Shown: piece after piece, positions 3,634-40,236 of the stretch
Position numbering within the stretch: the stretch's first letter is position 1
How the letters are laid out: each line of letters begins with the position of its first letter
Source: a virus
Reading direction: 5' to 3' (one strand)
Virus record (IMG/VR): IMGVR_UViG_3300032288_003025
Coordinates: 1 to 40,236 of that record
DNA length: 40,236 nt
Made by a program: the position numbers and the translations under genes
Notes under the pieces: model-generated
The model's input: only the letters and a program-made list of their open reading frames with translations
Databases searched by the model: none
Told to the model about the DNA's origin: nothing

Positions 3634-4929
3634 TTACCAGCCCTCCGAGGGCAACTGCGAGGTGAAATCGCCCGCCATCGCTGGCTGGGGCTTGGTGGTA
3701 TCTAACGCGGGGTCGTCGGCAAAGACGAGGCCCATCTTGGCGGGTTCGGGCTTGACCGCCTGCACCCGATCCCAGCCGTGGATGCTCAAGGCCAGCGCCA
3801 TGACGCCGTCATCGTGGTAGCCTTTCGGCGCCTCGTAGCGGACGCCGTTGGCCGTGTAAGTGAACTCGAACGCTTCCAACTCGGACTGAAGCCAGCCGTC
3901 CGGGATTTTTAATTCGCCGGCCTGAAAGGTGGCAATCAGCCGCTGCATCAGCCGGAGCTTGCTCGACTGGGTGAAGACATGTGGGCTCACGTTGACGCCC
4001 ATCTGCTGCAAGTCCGCCACAATCGCGTCGCCGACCCCGGTGGCGTCGGCCACGATGGGCACGTCGCCGACCAGCGCCTTGATCCGGGTCTTCGTCTCGG
4101 CCCATGGCGACTGCCAGCGCTCCAAGACACAGACCTGCATCCAGGCGTCCACGCCACAGACCACGGTGTAGTCCATGGACCGAGCGAGGTCGACGCCAAA
4201 GACGACCGGCCTCTTGTCCGACAGGGCGCTGACGGCCTTGCGGATGGCGTCCAGACCGAAGGGGTTGGCGCCGTCGTCGGTCGGGATGCCCTCGAACTCC
4301 TGCTGGAAAATCTCGGGCGGCAGCTCATTTCTGGCCGCTTCGACTTCCTCGGCGGGAATGTAAGGGTTGGTCAGCGTGGAGGCACGGAAGCTGGCCCAGT
4401 CCGGGTCATCCCCCCGCTCTCCCCGATGAAACAGCACCACGAACCCGTGCCGGCGTCCTTTCGGGGTGCCGAGAATCAGCGCCCGCCCGCCCAGATCGAC
4501 CAGCGTCGGGCGGATAGCGGCCTGCCAGACGGCCAGCAGGTCCTTCGCAATCCCCGCCTCGTCGATGATGGCCAGCGCGTATTTGCGGCCACGGGCCGGA
4601 TCGGGGCTGTCCAAGGTCCAGACCTCGATGACCCCGCCGGTTTTGAGCTCCAAGCGCTTATCCTGCTCCGACTGCCGCTCGACTAAGCCACCCAACCGCT
4701 GGACCAGCTCCCGCCAGGCTTCCAGCGCCAGCTTGTAGGACGGCGCGAACCAGCCGACGGGCTGACCCTTCAAGGCGGCATCGCAGGCCAGCCGGATGCC
4801 TAAGGCCGACTTTCCGAACCGCCGGCCACACATCACGACCCGGAACCGGGCCGGGTGGTCGGCGATGGCCTTCTGGCCGGGGTGCAACTTGTGGAGCCGG
4901 ATTTCCAACGTCTTCGCAGACTCCGTCAT
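3634..4929 (-). CDS. terL: Terminase large subunit
   Basis: ATP-driven DNA-packaging motor with a nuclease that cuts the concatemer. N-terminal ATPase: Walker A at residues 35-41 (GRRFGKS) and Walker B with catalytic Glu at 119-126 (LAIIDEAG). A coupling-type motif, LILGTPKG, follows at about 151-158. The C-terminal RNase-H-like nuclease shows its acidic residues in VVFGVDLA (D247), IVADATG (D295) and YHDDGVMA (D373/D374). At 431 residues it is a normal length. The ATG at 4929 has GGAG a few bases upstream. Unusually, terS is not adjacent but 890 bp away across a non-coding block. Five small genes and the portal follow on the same strand. Confidence 0.95.
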   Translation of the reverse strand: MTESAKTLEIRLHKLHPGQKAIADHPARFRVVMCGRRFGKSALGIRLACDAALKGQPVGWFAPSYKLALEAWRELVQRLGGLVERQSEQDKRLELKTGGVIEVWTLDSPDPARGRKYALAIIDEAGIAKDLLAVWQAAIRPTLVDLGGRALILGTPKGRRHGFVVLFHRGERGDDPDWASFRASTLTNPYIPAEEVEAARNELPPEIFQQEFEGIPTDDGANPFGLDAIRKAVSALSDKRPVVFGVDLARSMDYTVVCGVDAWMQVCVLERWQSPWAETKTRIKALVGDVPIVADATGVGDAIVADLQQMGVNVSPHVFTQSSKLRLMQRLIATFQAGELKIPDGWLQSELEAFEFTYTANGVRYEAPKGYHDDGVMALALSIHGWDRVQAVKPEPAKMGLVFADDPALDTTKPQPAMAGDFTSQLPSEGW

Positions 4930-5159
4930 GCCGCTCCGAAAGGAAAGCTAGGTCCAGGTCGCTCACTGGGCATGGTCGGCAAGGTCATGACCCTCATCTC
5001 GCCATGCACATCCCCCTGAGGGGTCCCTATAGACAGTGCCCTCGATGCCTAGCAGAAAGTGCGTTTGATCACGCCGCAACCGCAAGGGGGTGCTGCGTTG
5101 CCCCACCCGCGCGGCAGCAAACAACGTCCCATCCGAGGCCCAGCCAAATGGCTCGCTGA

Positions 5160-5200
5160 TGCGTAGAGTGCCTCAGTGTATAAATTTAATCAGTCAAGAC
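5160..5200 (-). promoter_or_regulatory. Candidate promoter for the terL operon (AT-rich patch)
   Basis: In a GC-rich genome this stretch is conspicuously AT-rich. Read on the minus strand, it has TTGCGT-like -35 sequences and TAAATT/TATACA -10-like hexamers at workable spacing, pointing at terL about 230 bases downstream. Matches to the sigma-70 consensus are only partial, so this is a candidate based mostly on base composition and position. Confidence 0.3.
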
Positions 5201-5280: not shown

Positions 5281-5320
5281 GTTTCACAACACCCCTCAGT
5301 CCTACCGCTGTCCAGCGAAT

Positions 5321-5338
5321 ATGAACTGGGTTGACATG
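5321..5338 (+). repeat. 18-bp direct repeat, copy 1
   Basis: ATGAACTGGGTTGACATG occurs here and again, without mismatch, at 5529-5546. Each copy ends in TTGACATG, the left half of the operator-like palindrome upstream of terS (6318-6335). A perfect 18-bp repeat 208 bases apart in non-coding DNA is unlikely by chance and suggests a protein-binding site. Confidence 0.8.
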
Positions 5339-5377: not shown

Positions 5378-5475
5378 CCATGTGCACATGGACCATGTCC
5401 CATGTGCACATGGAACAAGTAACACTCCATGTTTACATGTCACCATGGTACCATAGGACCACTCCATGTTCCATG
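5378..5475. repeat. CCATG palindrome array with two identical 14-bp palindromes
   Basis: The perfect palindrome CCATGTGCACATGG occurs at 5378-5391 and 5400-5413, start to start 22 bp (about two helical turns). The word CCATG also occurs at 5393, 5427, 5443, 5464 and 5471, making seven in under 100 bp. It resembles a cooperative binding array for a dimeric HTH protein. TerS, the initiator and the small HTH protein encoded at 17856-18053 are candidate ligands. No ligand can be assigned from sequence. Confidence 0.7.
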
Positions 5476-5518
5476 TTCCAGTGTTTCTAGTGTTACTAAC
5501 TACCTAACATCGTTCGTG

Positions 5519-5578
5519 GTTCATCTGAATGAACTGGGTTGACATGTACCCGGTTCATCTAGGTGAACTGGGTCCTGC
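5519..5578. promoter_or_regulatory. Initiator-type iteron site (two GTTCATCT dyads)
   Basis: Two 16-bp dyads are present: GTTCATCTGAATGAAC at 5519-5534 and GTTCATCTAGGTGAAC at 5553-5568. The second dyad with its flank (5551-5578) matches 24 of 28 bases of 17379-17406, inside the replication-initiator gene. The same half-site, AGATGAAC in reverse, appears again at 17364-17371. I infer that the same protein, most simply the initiator, binds both places. The second copy of the 18-bp repeat (5529-5546) overlaps the first dyad. Confidence 0.65.
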
Positions 5579-5819: not shown

Positions 5820-6305
5820 CTATTCCTCGCGCTTGGGTGCTGGCAGCGCCACCACCGACGTGGTTTGGGCGAGGGTTGACGCCACCACCGCCTCCTTCAA
5901 CGCCTGGACATTGCGGACGGGCGCATCATCCTCGATGACCTTGACTTGCAGGGTCTGCTGGCCCTGGTGCTCGACCACCTGCTTCTCGCCATACTCCATC
6001 GGCGCCGCCTTCGCCGCCGCCCACTTGAGCGTGTCGATGAGGGTCCGGTCCTGCGCTGAGGTCGCGTTACTGCTCTCCCGCGCCACCCGGATGGCCTCCT
6101 CCGCGAACGCCGCCCCCAGCAAGGGCCGCATGCGCCGATACTCGGCCCACAGCGCCGGGTCCGCCGCGATCCACTGCCGAATGGTCCCCGCGCGGACTTT
6201 GAGCTCACGGGCCGTGTCGGCCACCGTGCGGCCACTGGACATCCCCTCCAACACCTGCCGCACAATCGCTACGCGCTCCTCGGCGCTATGCTCACTCTTG
6301 CCCAT
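5820..6305 (-). CDS. terS: Terminase small subunit
   Basis: DNA-recognition subunit of the packaging machine; it binds the packaging site and hands DNA to TerL. After an N-terminal charged stretch, a helix-turn-helix is visible (SGRTVADTARELKVRAGTIR). It is followed by the hallmark small-terminase block DTLKWAAAKAAPMEYGEKQ and a C-terminal tail likely involved in oligomer or TerL contact. I choose the ATG at 6305 (161 aa) because GGAGG lies six bases upstream. A longer in-frame start at 6377 would run through the palindrome at 6318-6335. The gene is transcribed away from the DnaA-box cluster and separated from terL by a non-coding block, which is uncommon. Confidence 0.88.
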   Translation of the reverse strand: MGKSEHSAEERVAIVRQVLEGMSSGRTVADTARELKVRAGTIRQWIAADPALWAEYRRMRPLLGAAFAEEAIRVARESSNATSAQDRTLIDTLKWAAAKAAPMEYGEKQVVEHQGQQTLQVKVIEDDAPVRNVQALKEAVVASTLAQTTSVVALPAPKREE

Positions 6306-6317
6306 CCCGCCTCCACG

Positions 6318-6335
6318 TTGACATGTACAGGTCAA
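6318..6335. promoter_or_regulatory. 18-bp operator-like palindrome upstream of terS
   Basis: TTGACATGTACAGGTCAA is symmetric apart from one mismatched base pair on each side (TTGACnTGTACAnGTCAA). It lies 13 bases upstream of the terS ATG, just before its Shine-Dalgarno. The half GTTGACATGTAC also occurs at 5538-5549, and TTGACATG at 5331-5338. It probably binds a dimeric regulator of terS; the regulator is unknown. Confidence 0.6.
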
Positions 6336-6434
6336 TTTAGCGCTGACTGCGCTATGGGGCAAGTGGACTTGTACCAAGCGAACTGGCTGCGTGGTGGGGT
6401 GGATACGTCACCGCTCCCCGCTCCACCGGACATA

Positions 6435-10854: not shown

Positions 10855-12058
10855 CGATCACCTCGTAGGCATCAGGGTGCTTCCCTTCCAGCGCCGCTCG
10901 GAGCCGGAAGCCAATCCATTGCGCGACGGGGGAGGCAACGCCATTCCCGCACGCCTTGTACCGCGCCGTGTCCGACAGCGCGTAGGGCTCGCCGTCCTCA
11001 TCCACCCCACTCGCCGTCCAGCCATCCTCCCACCCCATCAGTCGTTCACACTCGACGGGCGTCAGACGGCGCGGGATGCCCCCTGCGACGGACAGGTCCG
11101 TCGCGTCTTTGTAGTCGCGGGCTTTGATGGCCGACGCGGTGCCGTCCTCGGCGTACTCCCCGAAGGCGACCATGCGATAGGCAGGGAAGACCACCTGATC
11201 GTTGGCCGTCCCGAGCGTTCGCTCACGCTCGGGACTCAGGAGCGGCCCCTTCCCGCCGCCTGGCTTCCCCTCGCGCTGTCGCAGGATGATGGCGGTGTAG
11301 TCGGTCACGCGGTTGTTGTGGTCGCCTGTAAGGGCGTTGTCGTCAACGCCCTCGCCGTTCCCTCGGGCGTCAAACGTGAGCGCAAGGCCTGCTCCAGCAT
11401 CGGCGGGAGCGGCTTGTGGCGTCGCTCGGCGCGGCGCAGGATGCCCTGACACGCCTTCGAGGAGAGATAGTACTTGGGCGGGATCGACGCGGGGGTCACG
11501 AGTACCGAGGACAAAGACGCGGCGGCGGCGCTGCGGTACCCCGAAGTACTGAGCGTCCAGTACCCGCCACGCGGCGACTCCGCGACGACCACGCACGATA
11601 CCTCCGCCGCCCTTCCATCCTCGGGCGGGAACAGCGACAGAGTCTCCGACGAATACGGAAAGGATACTGGCAAAATCGGCTCCTTGGTTTGAGGATAACA
11701 TACCTACGACGTTCTCATACAGCGCCAGCGGTGCCCCCGACTCTTCCCAGATGCGGAGCGCATCAAGCACGAGTACCGATCGCTCGCCATCCATCCCATC
11801 CCGCTTCCCCGCGATGGAGAAGTCTTGGCACGGGGCGCCGAAGGTCAGCATCGTGAACGGCCCGACCTCCTGCACGATGTCATGTCCGTTCAACTTCGAC
11901 ACATCGCCCCACAGCGGGACGTGCGGCCACTGCTTGCGGAGCACGGCGCGGGGATGGTCGTCCCACTCCGCGTGGCCCGCACACCGCCAGCCCGCTCGTT
12001 CGAGTCCTAAGCTCAAGCCGCCTACGCCAGCGAACAGCTCAACGAAGGTCAAGTCCAT
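10847..12058 (-). CDS. DNA cytosine-C5 methyltransferase
   Basis: Transfers methyl from S-adenosylmethionine to C5 of cytosine in a specific site. The classical motifs are in order: I FAGVGG (9-14), IV with catalytic Cys PCQ (76-78), VI ENV (115-117) and VIII QRRRRVF (176-182). Near the C-terminus come RRLTPVECERLMGW (IX) and GNGVASPVAQ (X). The region between VIII and IX includes the phage-type LTFDARGNGEGVDDN stretch and serves as target recognition. No restriction endonuclease neighbour is seen, so it is an orphan, probably masking phage DNA from host restriction. The ATG at 12058 overlaps the primase-helicase stop (TGATG). The upstream in-frame extension to 12157 runs back into that gene and is rejected. 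Confidence 0.93.
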   Translation of the reverse strand: MDLTFVELFAGVGGLSLGLERAGWRCAGHAEWDDHPRAVLRKQWPHVPLWGDVSKLNGHDIVQEVGPFTMLTFGAPCQDFSIAGKRDGMDGERSVLVLDALRIWEESGAPLALYENVVGMLSSNQGADFASILSVFVGDSVAVPARGWKGGGGIVRGRRGVAAWRVLDAQYFGVPQRRRRVFVLGTRDPRVDPAQVLSLLEGVSGHPAPRRATPQAAPADAGAGLALTFDARGNGEGVDDNALTGDHNNRVTDYTAIILRQREGKPGGGKGPLLSPERERTLGTANDQVVFPAYRMVAFGEYAEDGTASAIKARDYKDATDLSVAGGIPRRLTPVECERLMGWEDGWTASGVDEDGEPYALSDTARYKACGNGVASPVAQWIGFRLRAALEGKHPDAYEVIDV

Positions 12059-13797
12059 CAGCGCATCCTCCCGTAGCGAGTGAGTCGTCCGTGTTCGTTT
12101 TCCTGCTCCTCGATGGTCTGACTGCGCGGCAAGAGCCGCAGATTCGTGTAGTCCCATTGCACGGGGATGTCCGTCACCGCCCCGTGGCGGTTCTTGTCGA
12201 TGATGAGCCAGGTGTTCGCCGTCTGCCCCTGCCGCTCGAATCTAGAGTGATCGAAGAGGAGCACCTGATGGCTGTCGTTCTCGATCGCCGAGCCACCCAT
12301 CAACCCCTGCGCGGTCGGACGCTCGGCCCGTGCCGCTGACGTCTGGCGGTTGAACTGCGAGAGGCCGATCATCGTGACGTTCAGGGTATGCGTCAGGTCC
12401 CGGAGCTGGTGCGCGACCACCTCCATCCGGTCGTGGATGCTACTGCTATTCGCCGTCCACGCCAGCTGCAAGTAGTCCACGATGAAATACTTGGAGCCGT
12501 GCACCTCGTGATAGTACTTGATGCAGGCCACGACATCGGACAGCTTGGAGAGGGGCCGGCGGTTCATCAGCACATGCCCCCCGCTCATCTCCCGAATCCC
12601 GTTCAGCTGCGCCGAGGCCCGCTTGAACGTATCGGGATTGAAGTGGGCGCCCTGTTCCAGCTGCACCACAGGCAACCCCGACGCGATGGCGAGGTAGCGG
12701 GTCGCCAGCTCCGAGCGCCCCATCTCCAGCGACAGGAACGTGACCACCTCGCCATGCGTGACGGCGGTGTGCGCTAAGTTGAGGCCAATCAACGACTTGC
12801 CCGTGCCGGTGTTGGCGCCGATGGTGATGAACCAGCCCCGCGCCAAGCCAACCCCGCCGCCCCCGCCATGGCAGAGGCCGTTCCAGCCGGGGAGCATCGT
12901 CGGCACCGCGTCGATGGGCGCCAGCTTCTCATCGAGTATCTGCTGGAGCGTATCGCCGGAGAGCGAATCGAACGTGACGCTCGGGCCCTCGGCGCCGATG
13001 GGCGTGGCGTGGTCGAAGAGCGAGAGCATCTGCGCCTCGAACGCCACGCGGTCCACGCGCTGGTGGAGATCGCAGAGGTCCTTGACGGGGGTGCCGTCAA
13101 TCGAGACCTCCCGAATCACTCGCGCCTTGGGCATGTCCTTCGCCACCGCGCTGACTAGCGTCGCCCCACCCTCATCCGGCTCCTGCCAGACGTAGACCGT
13201 GCGGCCTTGCAGCAAGGGCGCATACTCGGTGCGCCACTGCGAAGCGCCGGGAAGCCCGACCACGCAGAGCCCGTGCTGCCATCCCGCGTGACAGTCACTC
13301 TCGCCCTCGACGATGAGGACGGGCACTTCCTTCGGCGTCTTCGCCAGCACATCCTGCCCATAGAGCGGAGCGCCAGTGCCGTCCTTGTCCCAGAAGGTGC
13401 CGGTGCGGGTGCGGAGCTTGGTGCGAATGACGCGCCCCTCGGCGTCCCGATACGGGATGGCCACCAGCGCATCACCGAACTTGCCGACCCGCTCTTCTAC
13501 GCCAGCGGCGTAGAGTGTGTCGAGGTTCAGGCCCTTCCGTTCCGCATACTCCACGAGGCTCAAGCCCCGCGACGCCTTCTCTTCGGGCAGGCTCACCCCG
13601 AGCGCCTCAGCGAGGGTGTCGAAGTGCTCCGTGAAGCCGCACGCCGAACACCCCCACTGATGGTCACCCAACCACGCGCTAGCGGTCCCGTCGTTATGCC
13701 TGGGGCATGTGAAGGCTAGGGTCTTCCCCGTCTTCTTGCTGCCGGGGCGGTTCCTGAGGGCCTGCACCAGCACACCACGCCGATCCATCGTTTGCAT
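12058..13797 (-). CDS. Bifunctional primase-helicase (T7 gp4 / Twinkle type)
   Basis: Unwinds the fork and lays primers. Zinc-binding primase module: CPRH (31-34) and CSAC (50-53), i.e. C, H, C, C. TOPRIM domain: VLIVEGESD (161-169), with EPDEGG at about 206-211. RecA/DnaB-like helicase: Walker A GANTGTGKS (327-335), LEMGRSELA, Walker B FIVDYLQL (438-445), GLSQFNRQ and GGSAIENDSHQ. At 579 residues it is a normal length. I start at the ATG at 13797, with GAGGAGAGG upstream; a second ATG nine bases later is also possible. No DNA polymerase accompanies it, so it must work with the host polymerase or an unrecognised one. Confidence 0.93.
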   Translation of the reverse strand: MQTMDRRGVLVQALRNRPGSKKTGKTLAFTCPRHNDGTASAWLGDHQWGCSACGFTEHFDTLAEALGVSLPEEKASRGLSLVEYAERKGLNLDTLYAAGVEERVGKFGDALVAIPYRDAEGRVIRTKLRTRTGTFWDKDGTGAPLYGQDVLAKTPKEVPVLIVEGESDCHAGWQHGLCVVGLPGASQWRTEYAPLLQGRTVYVWQEPDEGGATLVSAVAKDMPKARVIREVSIDGTPVKDLCDLHQRVDRVAFEAQMLSLFDHATPIGAEGPSVTFDSLSGDTLQQILDEKLAPIDAVPTMLPGWNGLCHGGGGGVGLARGWFITIGANTGTGKSLIGLNLAHTAVTHGEVVTFLSLEMGRSELATRYLAIASGLPVVQLEQGAHFNPDTFKRASAQLNGIREMSGGHVLMNRRPLSKLSDVVACIKYYHEVHGSKYFIVDYLQLAWTANSSSIHDRMEVVAHQLRDLTHTLNVTMIGLSQFNRQTSAARAERPTAQGLMGGSAIENDSHQVLLFDHSRFERQGQTANTWLIIDKNRHGAVTDIPVQWDYTNLRLLPRSQTIEEQENEHGRLTRYGRMR

Positions 13798-13897
13798 CGT
13801 GCTTATCCTCTCCTCTGAAGATGCGTTCCCAGTTCGCCTGCCATTCCGCCTCTGAAACGGCGGCAGGGCGTCGTGCACTACCCTTCCCGTTACTCAT
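13694..13897 (-). CDS. Small NGKGS-type phage protein, 67 aa
   Basis: Begins MSNGKGSARRPAAVSEAEWQ and continues ANWERIFRG, the recognisable pattern of a family of tiny phage proteins of unknown function. AGGAGG lies five bases before the ATG. The C-terminal 35 residues overlap the primase-helicase start in another frame, which is unusual. The first 32 residues match the family and the rest may be unconstrained. Its start overlaps the glycosyltransferase stop by four bases. Confidence 0.7.
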   Translation of the reverse strand: MSNGKGSARRPAAVSEAEWQANWERIFRGEDKHDANDGSAWCAGAGPQEPPRQQEDGEDPSLHMPQA

Positions 13898-16756: not shown

Positions 16757-16959
16757 GGCGCCTCCGATGCTTCGGGTGAAGTAGCGTCAAGCATGGCTTC
16801 GCGCCATTCCTTTTCCGTGTATCCCATCGCCAGAGCCAGCAACTCAAGTTCACGCAATAGTTGGCTAGCGGTAGCGCCCAAGAATGGCGTCTGGATTGTC
16901 ACGGTACGTCGATGCTGTGTTGAAGATAGATGCAAAAAATCGCTTCGGTCGATGTTCAT
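16753..16959 (-). CDS. Small protein, 68 aa
   Basis: N-terminal strand-rich part (RRTVTIQTPFLG), then a helix (SQLLRELELLALAMGYTEKE). No family is recognised. The ATG at 16959 overlaps the stop of the initiator gene by four bases, so it is probably made together with it. Confidence 0.6.
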   Translation of the reverse strand: MNIDRSDFLHLSSTQHRRTVTIQTPFLGATASQLLRELELLALAMGYTEKEWREAMLDATSPEASEAP

Positions 16960-17660
16960 CTCGCCTCCTCTAGTAAGCGGTCAAACTCCAAGACATCCTG
17001 CCCCGACCGCGCCCACTCCTCGCGCGTCCGGCCATGCACGGTCTTGACATCATACACCTCCCACGCGCCATCTGTCAAGAATCGGTGCAGACTCTTCACA
17101 TACTTGGGGTCCACCTGATTCAGCGCACACTGCGTGGCGTACCGGTGTGCGGCCCGCACCAGACGTTCACCGCTCACCCCCGATCGGAGGAGCGTCAGCG
17201 CGGCGTTCCGCACCGGGATGAAGGGGGGCGGCTCCGGCCGTTTGGGGTACACCTTCCACAGCGCATCGACGATTTCTTGCTCTTCTGCGCTATAGACGTT
17301 AGGTGGGGTCGTTCTCTTGGGTCGTTTGGGGGTCACAGCTATGACCTGACCCCCAGGTCGTCCAGATGAACTGACCCCCGGTTCACCTAGATGACCTGGG
17401 TCCAGCACCACCTCGTACAGGTGTGTGGTGCCGGGGCGTTCGGTGCGGCGGAGGTAGCCACGGGTCTCCAGCTCCTCGCAGGCCCGCTTGACCGTGCTCC
17501 GGCTCACCCCTGCCTCGTCGGCCAGGGTGTTCAGGCTTGTCCAGACCCCGCCTCCCAGCTTGTTGGTGTGGAGGCCGATGGCACACAGCACCCGGAGGTG
17601 CGTGGCCGTCAGGTCCCGATCCATCACCGCCTGCGCGGGGATGATGGACAGGTTAGGCAT
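16956..17660 (-). CDS. Lambda-O-like replication initiator, 234 aa
   Basis: Binds the origin and recruits the helicase. N-terminal winged HTH (about 18-82): LTATHLRVLCAIGLHTNK, then LADEAGVSRSTVKRACEELE and a YLRR wing. C-terminal domain (about 130-205): LWKVYPKRP...A, then PKYVKSLHRFLTDGAWEVYD, the pattern YPxR...WL/FL...W shared by phage O-type/replisome-organiser proteins. Between them, residues 85-107 form a Gly/Pro/Ser linker whose DNA (17341-17406) holds iteron-like inverted repeats. This is where the lambda O gene carries its origin. The start overlaps the previous gene by eight bases. Confidence 0.8.
   Translation of the reverse strand: MPNLSIIPAQAVMDRDLTATHLRVLCAIGLHTNKLGGGVWTSLNTLADEAGVSRSTVKRACEELETRGYLRRTERPGTTHLYEVVLDPGHLGEPGVSSSGRPGGQVIAVTPKRPKRTTPPNVYSAEEQEIVDALWKVYPKRPEPPPFIPVRNAALTLLRSGVSGERLVRAAHRYATQCALNQVDPKYVKSLHRFLTDGAWEVYDVKTVHGRTREEWARSGQDVLEFDRLLEEAR
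17341..17406. repeat. Iterons inside the initiator gene (candidate second origin)
   Basis: Three related units occur in 66 bp: GACCTGACCCCCAGGTC (17343-17359), the half-site AGATGAAC with GACCCCC and GTTCACCT (17364-17388), and AGATGACCTGGGTCC (17389-17403). They form nested inverted repeats. 17379-17406 matches 5551-5578 at 24 of 28 positions, although one is coding and the other is not, so the conservation is of DNA rather than protein. The location in the linker of the initiator gene parallels lambda ori. Confidence 0.7.
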
Positions 17661-20558: not shown

Positions 20559-21647
20559 TTAACCCTCGATGGTGGTAGCGAGGGCGGCCACGGTCGCACG
20601 GCCCTCGATGATATTGACCAGCTCCACGGCGTAGGAGGACCCTGCCCCCACCACGACCGCGAAGCCCTGCGACCAATCTGGCACCGCCGTGTAGCCGGGG
20701 TTGAGCTGGCACATGCACCCAATCTCGTAGGCGCGGATGACCTGCTCCCCCCGGAGACCCACGGCCGGCACGCGCCGGACATGGCTCCCCATGCGGTGCG
20801 TGTGTCCGTGCATCACGGAGTTGACGTAGCGCTCACTGTGGGCCTTGGCCGTGTAGCCGCCCCACTTCCGCGCCATATCGCCGTGCGTGACCAGCAGGTC
20901 GTCATGCAGGACGATCTCCGGCAGCATCTCGATCCGGCTCCAGTCCGGGTGCCACCAGCGCTGGTAGGTCATCTCCGTCATGGCGCGGGGGTGCTGCAAG
21001 AGTTCCGGGATGCGCTCGGAGAGGTAGCGCCACCAGCGGGACTCGGTGCCATTCCCCGAGTGGTTGGCGTCAATCTCGATGAGTTGGGCGTCCTTGGGCA
21101 GCACCTGCTCCAGCTCGTACAGGAACTTGCTATACGTCTCCGCCTCGTCCTTGAGGCCCCAGACATGCCGCACGTCCTTGGGGTAGCGGGAGAGCGCCAA
21201 GAGGTCGGGGAGGTCGCCGTTGAGGATGACCCGCTCCGGCTTGAGGCGCCGCACCGTCTCCAAGAAGATGCTGACCGCCGCGTCGTCCTGGAGCGGGAAG
21301 TGGAAGTCGGAGGCCACCACGGTGACCCCAGCCTCGGCGGTCTTGGCCGACCGCTTGGGGGGCGGGGTCACGGTCACGGGCCGGAAGCGGTCCCAGAAGT
21401 CCTCGATCTGTGTCGCCTTCTGCTCGTTAATCTCGATGACCTTGTTGACCGCCCGGTCCACGGCCGAGAGCTTGTACACCTGCATGGCATCGCGCCAGGC
21501 GTCCCGATGCTCCCGCTGGAGGTGCATGCGGACGGCCTCGGTCTTCCGCCCCGTGGCCTTGGCGTGGCGGGCAAACCCCTCCGCTCCATGCGCCCGGACC
21601 AGGTCCAGCGCCGAATCGACCTCCGACTGCGTCCATGCCTGCTTCAT
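20559..21647 (-). CDS. Metallophosphoesterase with N-terminal HTH, 362 aa
   Basis: The N-terminal 45 residues look like an HTH (WTQSEVDSALDLVRAHGAEG, KTEAVRMHLQREH). From about 125 a calcineurin-like phosphoesterase follows: D-x-H in VVASDFHFP, GD in ILNGDLPD, ANHSGNGTESR in place of the usual GNHD, THGD, and HGHTHRMG. These bind two metals and hydrolyse phosphodiesters, possibly nucleic acid or cyclic nucleotides. Pairing an HTH with this enzyme suggests a DNA-acting role. It follows the spanin-like gene with a four-base overlap. Confidence 0.85.
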   Translation of the reverse strand: MKQAWTQSEVDSALDLVRAHGAEGFARHAKATGRKTEAVRMHLQREHRDAWRDAMQVYKLSAVDRAVNKVIEINEQKATQIEDFWDRFRPVTVTPPPKRSAKTAEAGVTVVASDFHFPLQDDAAVSIFLETVRRLKPERVILNGDLPDLLALSRYPKDVRHVWGLKDEAETYSKFLYELEQVLPKDAQLIEIDANHSGNGTESRWWRYLSERIPELLQHPRAMTEMTYQRWWHPDWSRIEMLPEIVLHDDLLVTHGDMARKWGGYTAKAHSERYVNSVMHGHTHRMGSHVRRVPAVGLRGEQVIRAYEIGCMCQLNPGYTAVPDWSQGFAVVVGAGSSYAVELVNIIEGRATVAALATTIEG

Positions 21648-38892: not shown

Positions 38893-39987
38893 TTAACGGA
38901 TTGACGACAGGATTTCGTCCATCGCACTGTCGAGGGCGTCATCCAGCGTCTTGGGTTTTCCAGCCTTGGGTTTCCCCTTGTCCGGCGTCGCGGCACGACC
39001 CACGGGCTTAGTGGCTTGGCCTAAGGCCCGCTTCGCCTTCTGCGCTTCGACTTGGGCTTTCACCGCAGCTTTCTGCGCCTCGACCACTTGGGGCGGGGTA
39101 GCAGTCTCGCTGCGACGGGCATGGGTCATCTGCGCCCACATGGCGAGGTCATTCACGATGTACTGCCGAGCGGCGTCGAACTGGGACGCGGGGAGATAGG
39201 GCTGGCCATTGGGCCCCACCTGTGCGTGCAGTTGCATGGCATACGCCATCCGCTCTTCCAACTCCTCTGGCGTCACCGAAGGCAGGGTCTGGGCAATCAA
39301 ATCCAGAGCTGGCTTCACTTCCGCCTGATAGAACTGCTGTCCCACTTGCTGAATCTGGGTCATCTGCGCTTCGACCCGGACCCGTTCCACCTCTCGCTCC
39401 GCGCGTTCGGCCCGCTTCTCGGGGCTGTTCTCCGCCTGATAGGCATCGCGCACGGAGAGGAAAAAGTCTTCATCTTGGAGCAGGCGCTCCAGCTGGGCTT
39501 CGCGTTCGGCCAAGAGCTGCGCGTACTCCTCGCGCTCGGTCTGCAACGCTTCGGCCTGCTGTTCGGTCTGCTTGTACTGCTGCTCGCGGGCCTCGTTATA
39601 GACGCCGAACTGCGCGAGCTTGACCACCTGGTCCAGCCGGTCCTTGCGGACCTTGCCGTTCGCCTTGTACTCGACGATCAGCGCCGGAATCTCGACCTCG
39701 CCTTCCGCATCACGGAGGGTGAACTCGGTCGCCAGCTGGTCCTCGACCACCGGCACCGCGACATAGCCGTCGGGCAGCGCGGGGTCGGTCTCGGAGTCCT
39801 CGCCCTCGACCTCGGGCGCCTCCTCCATGGTTTCGTCCCCTTCGTCTGGGGCGATCGCCTCAGTGGGGGTGGGGTCCGACTTCGGCGCCTCGGGGGCGTC
39901 CTCGGCCGGGGGTGCGGGGGGAGGGGCGACTGGGACTGAGGAAATCGCAGCCTCAGCGGCCTCCGACAACGCGGTACTGATGTCCAT
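38893..39987 (-). CDS. Capsid scaffolding protein, 364 aa
   Basis: Very acidic, Pro/Ala/Glu-rich N-terminal half (APPAEDAPEAPKSDPTPTEA), then a long charged coiled coil (about 130-215, YKQTEQQAEALQTEREEYAQ) and a basic Lys/Pro C-terminus that would touch the capsid protein. This is the standard design of a phage scaffold, directly upstream of the major capsid gene. AAGGAG precedes the ATG at 39987. Confidence 0.85.
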   Translation of the reverse strand: MDISTALSEAAEAAISSVPVAPPPAPPAEDAPEAPKSDPTPTEAIAPDEGDETMEEAPEVEGEDSETDPALPDGYVAVPVVEDQLATEFTLRDAEGEVEIPALIVEYKANGKVRKDRLDQVVKLAQFGVYNEAREQQYKQTEQQAEALQTEREEYAQLLAEREAQLERLLQDEDFFLSVRDAYQAENSPEKRAERAEREVERVRVEAQMTQIQQVGQQFYQAEVKPALDLIAQTLPSVTPEELEERMAYAMQLHAQVGPNGQPYLPASQFDAARQYIVNDLAMWAQMTHARRSETATPPQVVEAQKAAVKAQVEAQKAKRALGQATKPVGRAATPDKGKPKAGKPKTLDDALDSAMDEILSSIR

Positions 39988-39996
39988 CCGAACTCC

Positions 39997-40236
39997 TTAG
40001 GATTGGCGGGACAGGATGTCCGCCTGCCGTGCGGCGACCTCCGCTTCTGGCGCCCCCGCGAGCTGCTGTTGCAGCATCGGGGCCACGCCAATCGGGGGGT
40101 TACCGGACGCCAGCGGCAGCTGACCCGGCGGGAGAGAGGGCACACTGGCGGCGCCAGGGCCAGCCGGGAGGCCACCCTCCGGCGTCGGCGCCGGCGGTGC
40201 TCCACCTCCCTGCTTCTGCATGGCCTGATTGGCCAA
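39997..40236 (-). CDS. Portal protein, C-terminal 79 codons (in frame with the gene at 1-2103)
   Basis: Open from the window edge to a stop at 39997, in the same frame as the portal N-terminal part once the 123-bp overlap is joined. Gly/Pro/Ala/Gln-rich, so probably the flexible inner tail of the portal. Bases 40114-40236 duplicate 1-123. Confidence 0.88.
   Translation of the reverse strand: MANQAMQKQGGGAPPAPTPEGGLPAGPGAASVPSLPPGQLPLASGNPPIGVAPMLQQQLAGAPEAEVAARQADILSRQS
40114..40236. repeat. Terminal 123-bp direct repeat, right copy
   Basis: Identical to 1-123; see the left copy. It marks the point where the circular genome was opened by assembly. Confidence 0.97.

Follow-up and report, generated by a model that had tools for sequence, protein, structure and literature searches.

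Matching repeat arrays within the initiator gene and between the terminase genes of an uncultured phage suggest two origin-type sites

The DNA analysed here, which we call the window, comprises 40,236 bp and is a virus record of IMG/VR. An exact direct repeat of 123 bp is present at its two ends (1-123 and 40114-40236), and therefore the record looks like a closed genome, very probably one of 40,113 bp. Terminal repeats of a like kind are also found in the related contigs G002, G033, G034 and G039. The genes relevant to the repeat arrays are all on the minus strand. They encode a replication initiator of 234 aa (16956-17660; Pfam HTH_36, 1.3e-11; PHROG replication initiation protein, 4.2e-21), TerS (5820-6377; PHROG terminase small subunit, 1.5e-15), TerL (3634-4929; PHROG terminase large subunit, 6e-44) and a primase/helicase with a DnaB-type C-terminus (12058-13878; Pfam DnaB_C, 9.8e-33; PHROG DNA primase/helicase, 1.7e-48). 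A metallophosphoesterase gene of the window lies at 20559-21647, outside the terS-terL gap. When genome contigs were searched with TerL, one 5-kb contig binned as Verrucomicrobia was found, which is too short for naming a host. The gap of this terL relative (L128, 700-1960) has TGCA-class iterons, AACG and A+T-rich DNA, and an apparent inserted HNH-type endonuclease gene stands ahead of its terL.

The winged helix-turn-helix (HTH) domain at residues 16-70 of the initiator (17451-17615, minus strand; HTH_36 match) is the presumed reader of the repeats. In the AlphaFold model, the helices and strands of the winged-helix half occupy residues 9-84. They are followed by a disordered linker at residues 90-120 (pLDDT <50; 17301-17393, minus strand) and by a helical C-terminal half. 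A PHROG 270 / O-like profile match spans residues 5-201 (4.2e-21), and several other "replication initiation O-like" PHROG families also match. By profile and fold the winged helix is of a generic MarR/GntR-like type, and Foldseek with the model gave generic winged helices, none with E below 0.001. A sequence search of solved structures gave none for the initiator. Used as a single-protein query, the initiator had no match in viral contigs and no relative in genome contigs, and its best match in phage records was 34%, at the HTH level only. No match to a helicase loader was found among the ORFs neighbouring the initiator gene.

The predicted disorder of the linker coincides exactly with the stretch of the gene that bears the iterons. 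An earlier note on this DNA had described three inverted repeats here, and we find three imperfect dyads, all read on the minus strand, at 17380-17396 (GGTCATCTAGGTGAACC), 17356-17371 (GTTCATCTGGACGACC) and 17328-17346 (GGTCATAGCTGTGACCCCC). Together with a direct repeat of 25 nt (76% identity), they lie within 17327-17406. An AACG box with two more AACG at 13-nt spacing (AACGACCCAAGAGAACGACCCCACCTAACG; 17297-17329, minus strand) is the counterpart of a conserved CACCC-N-AACG box, of which the window's variant is CCCCCAAACG. The dyads of the window follow approximately the pattern G(G/T)TCA-N6-TGA(A/C)CC, which is imperfectly repeated three times in the gene and occurs twice in the terS-terL gap. 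The 80-bp linker stretch ranks within the top 0.12% of the window for combined direct and inverted self-similarity. By the count of near-palindromes alone the linker is unremarkable, with 33% of random stretches scoring as well, and this, like the G+C-rich character of the coding DNA, is what one would expect if Pro/Gly/Ser-rich linker codons merely resembled repeats through coincidence and protein constraint. The A+T enrichment at the in-gene site is mild in the window (48% over 60 nt, 96th percentile); among the relatives it reaches the 99.6th percentile, and G002 has no enrichment. Three AACG within 60 nt after the linker array are seen in nearly all cases, a feature of only 0.3-0.9% of stretches.

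The second array is in the non-coding gap between terS and terL. It has two copies of the repeat, at 5552-5569 (AGTTCACCTAGATGAACC) and 5518-5535 (AGTTCATTCAGATGAACC), and an AACGA box at 5503-5518 (CACGAACGATGTTAGG), all on the minus strand. Directly after the box comes an A+T-rich, palindrome-rich tract (5385-5512, minus strand), which has the highest A+T of the window and is a candidate unwinding element. A third, half-site-like copy (AACCCAGTTCAT; 5315-5332, minus strand) is found on the far side of the tract. The 80-bp intergenic stretch is in the top 0.22% of the window for combined direct and inverted self-similarity. At all ten gap sites measured, the A+T content of the 100 nt that follow the box ranks at the 99.5-100th percentile of the respective genome. 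The intergenic copy looks more complete as an origin because it adjoins the most A+T-rich DNA of the genome, and the gap array, consisting of iterons, AACGA box and A+T-rich tract, has the layout of a replication origin. A second set of palindromes is present in the tract (5380-5480; CCATGTGCACATGG twice and CATGTTTACATG), in G002 too, and these are possible extra binding sites or cruciform-prone sites.

The in-gene and gap sites are about 11.8 kb apart. The earlier note reported that the 28-bp piece 17379-17406 matches 24 bases of 5551-5578, and the 24/28 identity is confirmed; the shared element is near-palindromic, so the match is valid on both strands. The window was compared with itself exhaustively, as ungapped 28-mers, and pairs with at least 24/28 identities were listed; the other pairs were the 123-bp terminal repeat and two local ones within other long ORFs (32846/33050 and 28657/29065). 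Thus, this is the best long-range pair, and the genome has no further one as good. About 0.2 equally good pairs are expected by chance in 40 kb by our own estimate, which leaves some room for coincidence, and for 24-mers the best match, 21/24, equals the top of the background, which is 18-21 per random 180-bp window. The pair in the window alone is only modestly beyond chance and is insufficient to settle the matter. It is because of the comparison with relatives that we take the match to be more than chance. GC skew, put forward earlier as an origin marker, marks neither site: there is no turn at either of them, and one-strand coding confounds the skew.

The survey of relatives covered 46 loci from TerL searches. 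Initiator relatives were then obtained via the TerL relatives and initiator alignments, G002 and G011 first, then G019-G023 and then 16 more contigs. A repeat array is present in the linker of every full-length initiator gene, and it ends in CACCC-N-AACG in all 18 examined contigs that encode the initiator. Outside the two sites the box occurs only six times over all 18 contigs, and no iterons were found around these extra occurrences. The box is in codon phase 0 in five initiators, where it gives HPND and similar peptides, and in phase 1 in the rest, where it gives SPKR and similar ones. In one case 26 identical nt (GTCACCCAAACGAGAAGAAGAACGAT) encode SPKREEER in L090 and HPNEKKND in L092. One DNA word is used in two frames for different peptides, and therefore it is the DNA that is constrained, not the protein. 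This bears out the earlier suggestion of a binding site rather than protein constraint, since the linker protein and even its frame vary while the DNA repeats and CACCC-N-AACG stay. When the relatives were checked for loss of the repeats with the protein linker kept, the opposite pattern was found. Pure coincidence or protein constraint is contradicted by this reading-frame result, and the same word is also found in non-coding DNA.

The same box, with iterons before it, is present in the terS-terL gap of 9 of the 16 relatives with TerL, and gap arrays are also present in the window and G002, each with its own class of repeat. Six relatives counted as distinct (G022, G024, G026/G027, G028, G033 and G034) lack the gap array, though they keep TerS, TerL and the linker array, and therefore the gap site is not essential. 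G008 lacks the HTH half of the initiator and retains just the C-terminal part; the repeats are gone at both places, yet terS is kept. Because the linker array is universal, the gap array is optional and G008 is without both, the repeats follow the initiator and not TerS. This pattern is hard to reconcile with pac/cos-like packaging sites that TerS would recognise in the gap and, as a second copy, in the initiator gene. Packaging signals are often in or near terS, and the location of the gap between terS and terL would suit them. However, the linker array comes with every initiator (18/18) and the gap array is dispensable to relatives that have both terminase subunits, so we regard a packaging role as very improbable.

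Several other features of these relatives are of note. In G008 and G007 (L053 and L052, ~1500-1866) the C-terminal half of the initiator stands alone with a separate small HTH-like protein before it, and iterons are absent there; this arrangement is a natural domain replacement. From our reading of the DNA, a metallophosphoesterase-like gene is in the terS-terL gap of G008, G024, G026, G027 and G033, and a tRNA-like sequence precedes it in G008, G024 and G026/27. In contigs G020 and G024, terL is on the strand opposite the initiator.

The repeats differ in class among the genomes. The bulk have GTGAC-N6-GTCACCC, G002 has GGGTGCANNAGCTNNTGCGGGGGT, and the window has TTCA/TGAA. By our reading of the alignments, 10 of 11 genomes have linker and gap repeats that agree with each other; the exception is G011, where the linker is of the TGCA class and the gap has GGGGGTGAAGCGGGCTTC three times. 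In three genomes, namely the window (21/24), G002 (22/24) and G020 (21/24), the terS-terL gap holds the best match to the linker DNA genome-wide, and the sequences of these three matches all differ. Among 120 permutations, the pairing of each linker with the gap of its own genome came first at K=22 and third at K=18, though these ranks overstate independence as the genomes are related. A scan of 2.9 million viral contigs for the G002 iteron pattern found it twice in the G002 linker, once in the G002 gap and in two other contigs of the same TerL group, and nowhere else. The idea of a shared binding site is thus well supported by the linker-gap match within genomes across different repeat classes. 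For resemblance by coincidence, the agreement of differing repeats between the two sites is a further difficulty, and we give that explanation almost no weight.

The recognition region of the HTH domain also varies. In the bulk it is (S/N)-x-R-(T/S)-V-Q-R (RTVQR-type), which goes with GTGAC/GTCAC repeats. ERTVQM/ERTIQS is found in G002 and G011 with TGCA repeats, and the window has RSTVKR. In these sequences helix and repeat class are correlated and may be coupled, but the class also follows protein relatedness. A more speculative possibility, to which we give less than even odds, is that the recognition code of the initiator and the two origin arrays (one in coding DNA, the other optional and next to terS and terL) evolve together as a cognate set. 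On that view, the array near the terminase genes would link the start of packaging to late replication or to fork arrest, and G011 would be a recombinant between codes.

The region between the gap site and terL has to be considered as well. A promoter-like TTGAC...TACACT is found there (5175-5197), and the gap site is upstream of terL. With a generic MarR/GntR-like winged helix in the protein, these features could mean that the repeats are operators and that the HTH protein represses its own gene, to which it would bind as a roadblock, and regulates late genes from a site before terL. However, the in-gene site is ~260 bp inside the initiator gene and not at a promoter, and the promoter-like stretch is ~320 bp from the gap site. 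In addition, for 10/10 gap sites the neighbouring DNA has the highest A+T of the genome, and the PHROG families matched are replication initiators. We therefore consider operators unlikely, and both the TerS/pac and the autorepressor readings rank below an origin function. The promoter-like stretch is followed by a conserved leader upstream of terL (5072-5180 in the window, minus strand; core GGATGGGACGTTGTTTGCTGCCGCGCGGGTGGGGCAACGCAGCACCCCC). Its first stem is 100% paired in 12 sequences, with both-side changes at 3 of 5 pairs, and the covariation score was reached by 0 of 500 shuffles. Single copies of the leader occur in 19 viral stretches, all of them from contigs of terL relatives, and a search of Rfam gave no match. 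It is a candidate structured leader RNA, e.g., an antiterminator or a regulator of the late operon.

We suggest that the arrays at 17297-17396 and 5385-5573 are two origin-type sites bound by the phage's own initiator (16956-17660), and we put the probability of this at about three in four. At the level of sequence, the shared repeats, the constraint on the DNA, the association of the sites with the initiator and the A+T-rich flank are established. The initiator would be the binder, with its N-terminal winged helix contacting the dyad iterons. The A+T-rich tract would open after iteron binding, and the C-terminal half of the initiator would help to load or recruit the primase-helicase (12058-13878), so that replication would start at these sites. 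The gap array would provide the origin layout and the in-gene array a second origin-type site. As to which of them would fire first, the evidence is split, since the gap has the better unwinding tract and the gene has the universal array.

It is also conceivable, though we think it doubtful, that the in-gene array is the sole origin and that the gap array is an initiator-binding site for fork arrest or copy control (titration/handcuffing). The gap array is optional and the linker array universal, which would fit, and in SPP1, oriR with G38P has been proposed to stall forks (PMC6316719). However, of the two sites it is the gap that has the stronger A+T-rich candidate for an unwinding tract. With two origin-type sites, as we prefer, the terminase-side site could instead, or also, stall forks to shift replication to concatemers, which is the role proposed for SPP1 oriR. 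We speculate that a location between terS and terL would be well suited to this. In-gene origins are already known from a few model phages. The pairing of initiator with origin repeats has many natural variants in this uncultured clade, and one DNA word is kept in two frames; therefore, the recognition code is testable by swapping repeats and helices. The clade also raises the question of why terS and terL should have between them a second origin-like site that can be lost.

The earlier note had called the locus lambda-O-like. In lambda, four iterons, which are imperfect inverted repeats of ~19 bp, are inside gene O at 39034-39118, and an A+T-rich region is beside the iterons of ori-lambda (PMC7466680). 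The likeness holds for the in-gene iterons, which in both phages lie midway along the initiator gene, with the DNA-binding domain on one side and the C-terminal domain on the other. There are also differences: lambda has no second distant site, and no adjacent P-type helicase loader gene is recognised next to our initiator. BLASTP gave no similarity between lambda O and the initiator (E 1.1), and hhalign gave a 29-column match in the first helix only, with a probability of 3%. The initiator matches O-like PHROGs at the HTH level only, and its likeness to PHROG 270 / O-like initiators is one of profile match and family name. Thus, with no BLAST or convincing profile homology and no P-like loader, membership of the lambda O family is not supported.

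The closest precedent is SPP1 G38P, for which oriL is inside gene 38 and oriR is in a non-coding gap of the late region ~13 kb away, with direct repeats and A+T-rich DNA at both (PMC6316719). At oriR this replisome organiser is proposed to stall forks and to start concatemer synthesis (PMC6316719). As in SPP1, the initiator gene bears, judged from its sequence, its own candidate binding repeats, and a distant non-coding site has the same repeats and A+T-rich DNA (~11.8 kb away, compared with ~13 kb). Unlike in SPP1, the distant site is between terS and terL, is optional among the relatives and has repeats that vary in class. SPP1 has a separate loader, G39P, and a DnaB-type helicase; here a DnaB-type primase-helicase is present, and no loader is recognised among the neighbours. 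A described two-site system of this kind was not found in the literature searched. In our best reading, the arrangement resembles oriL/oriR of SPP1 in the layout of its sites, and its in-gene half resembles ori-lambda.
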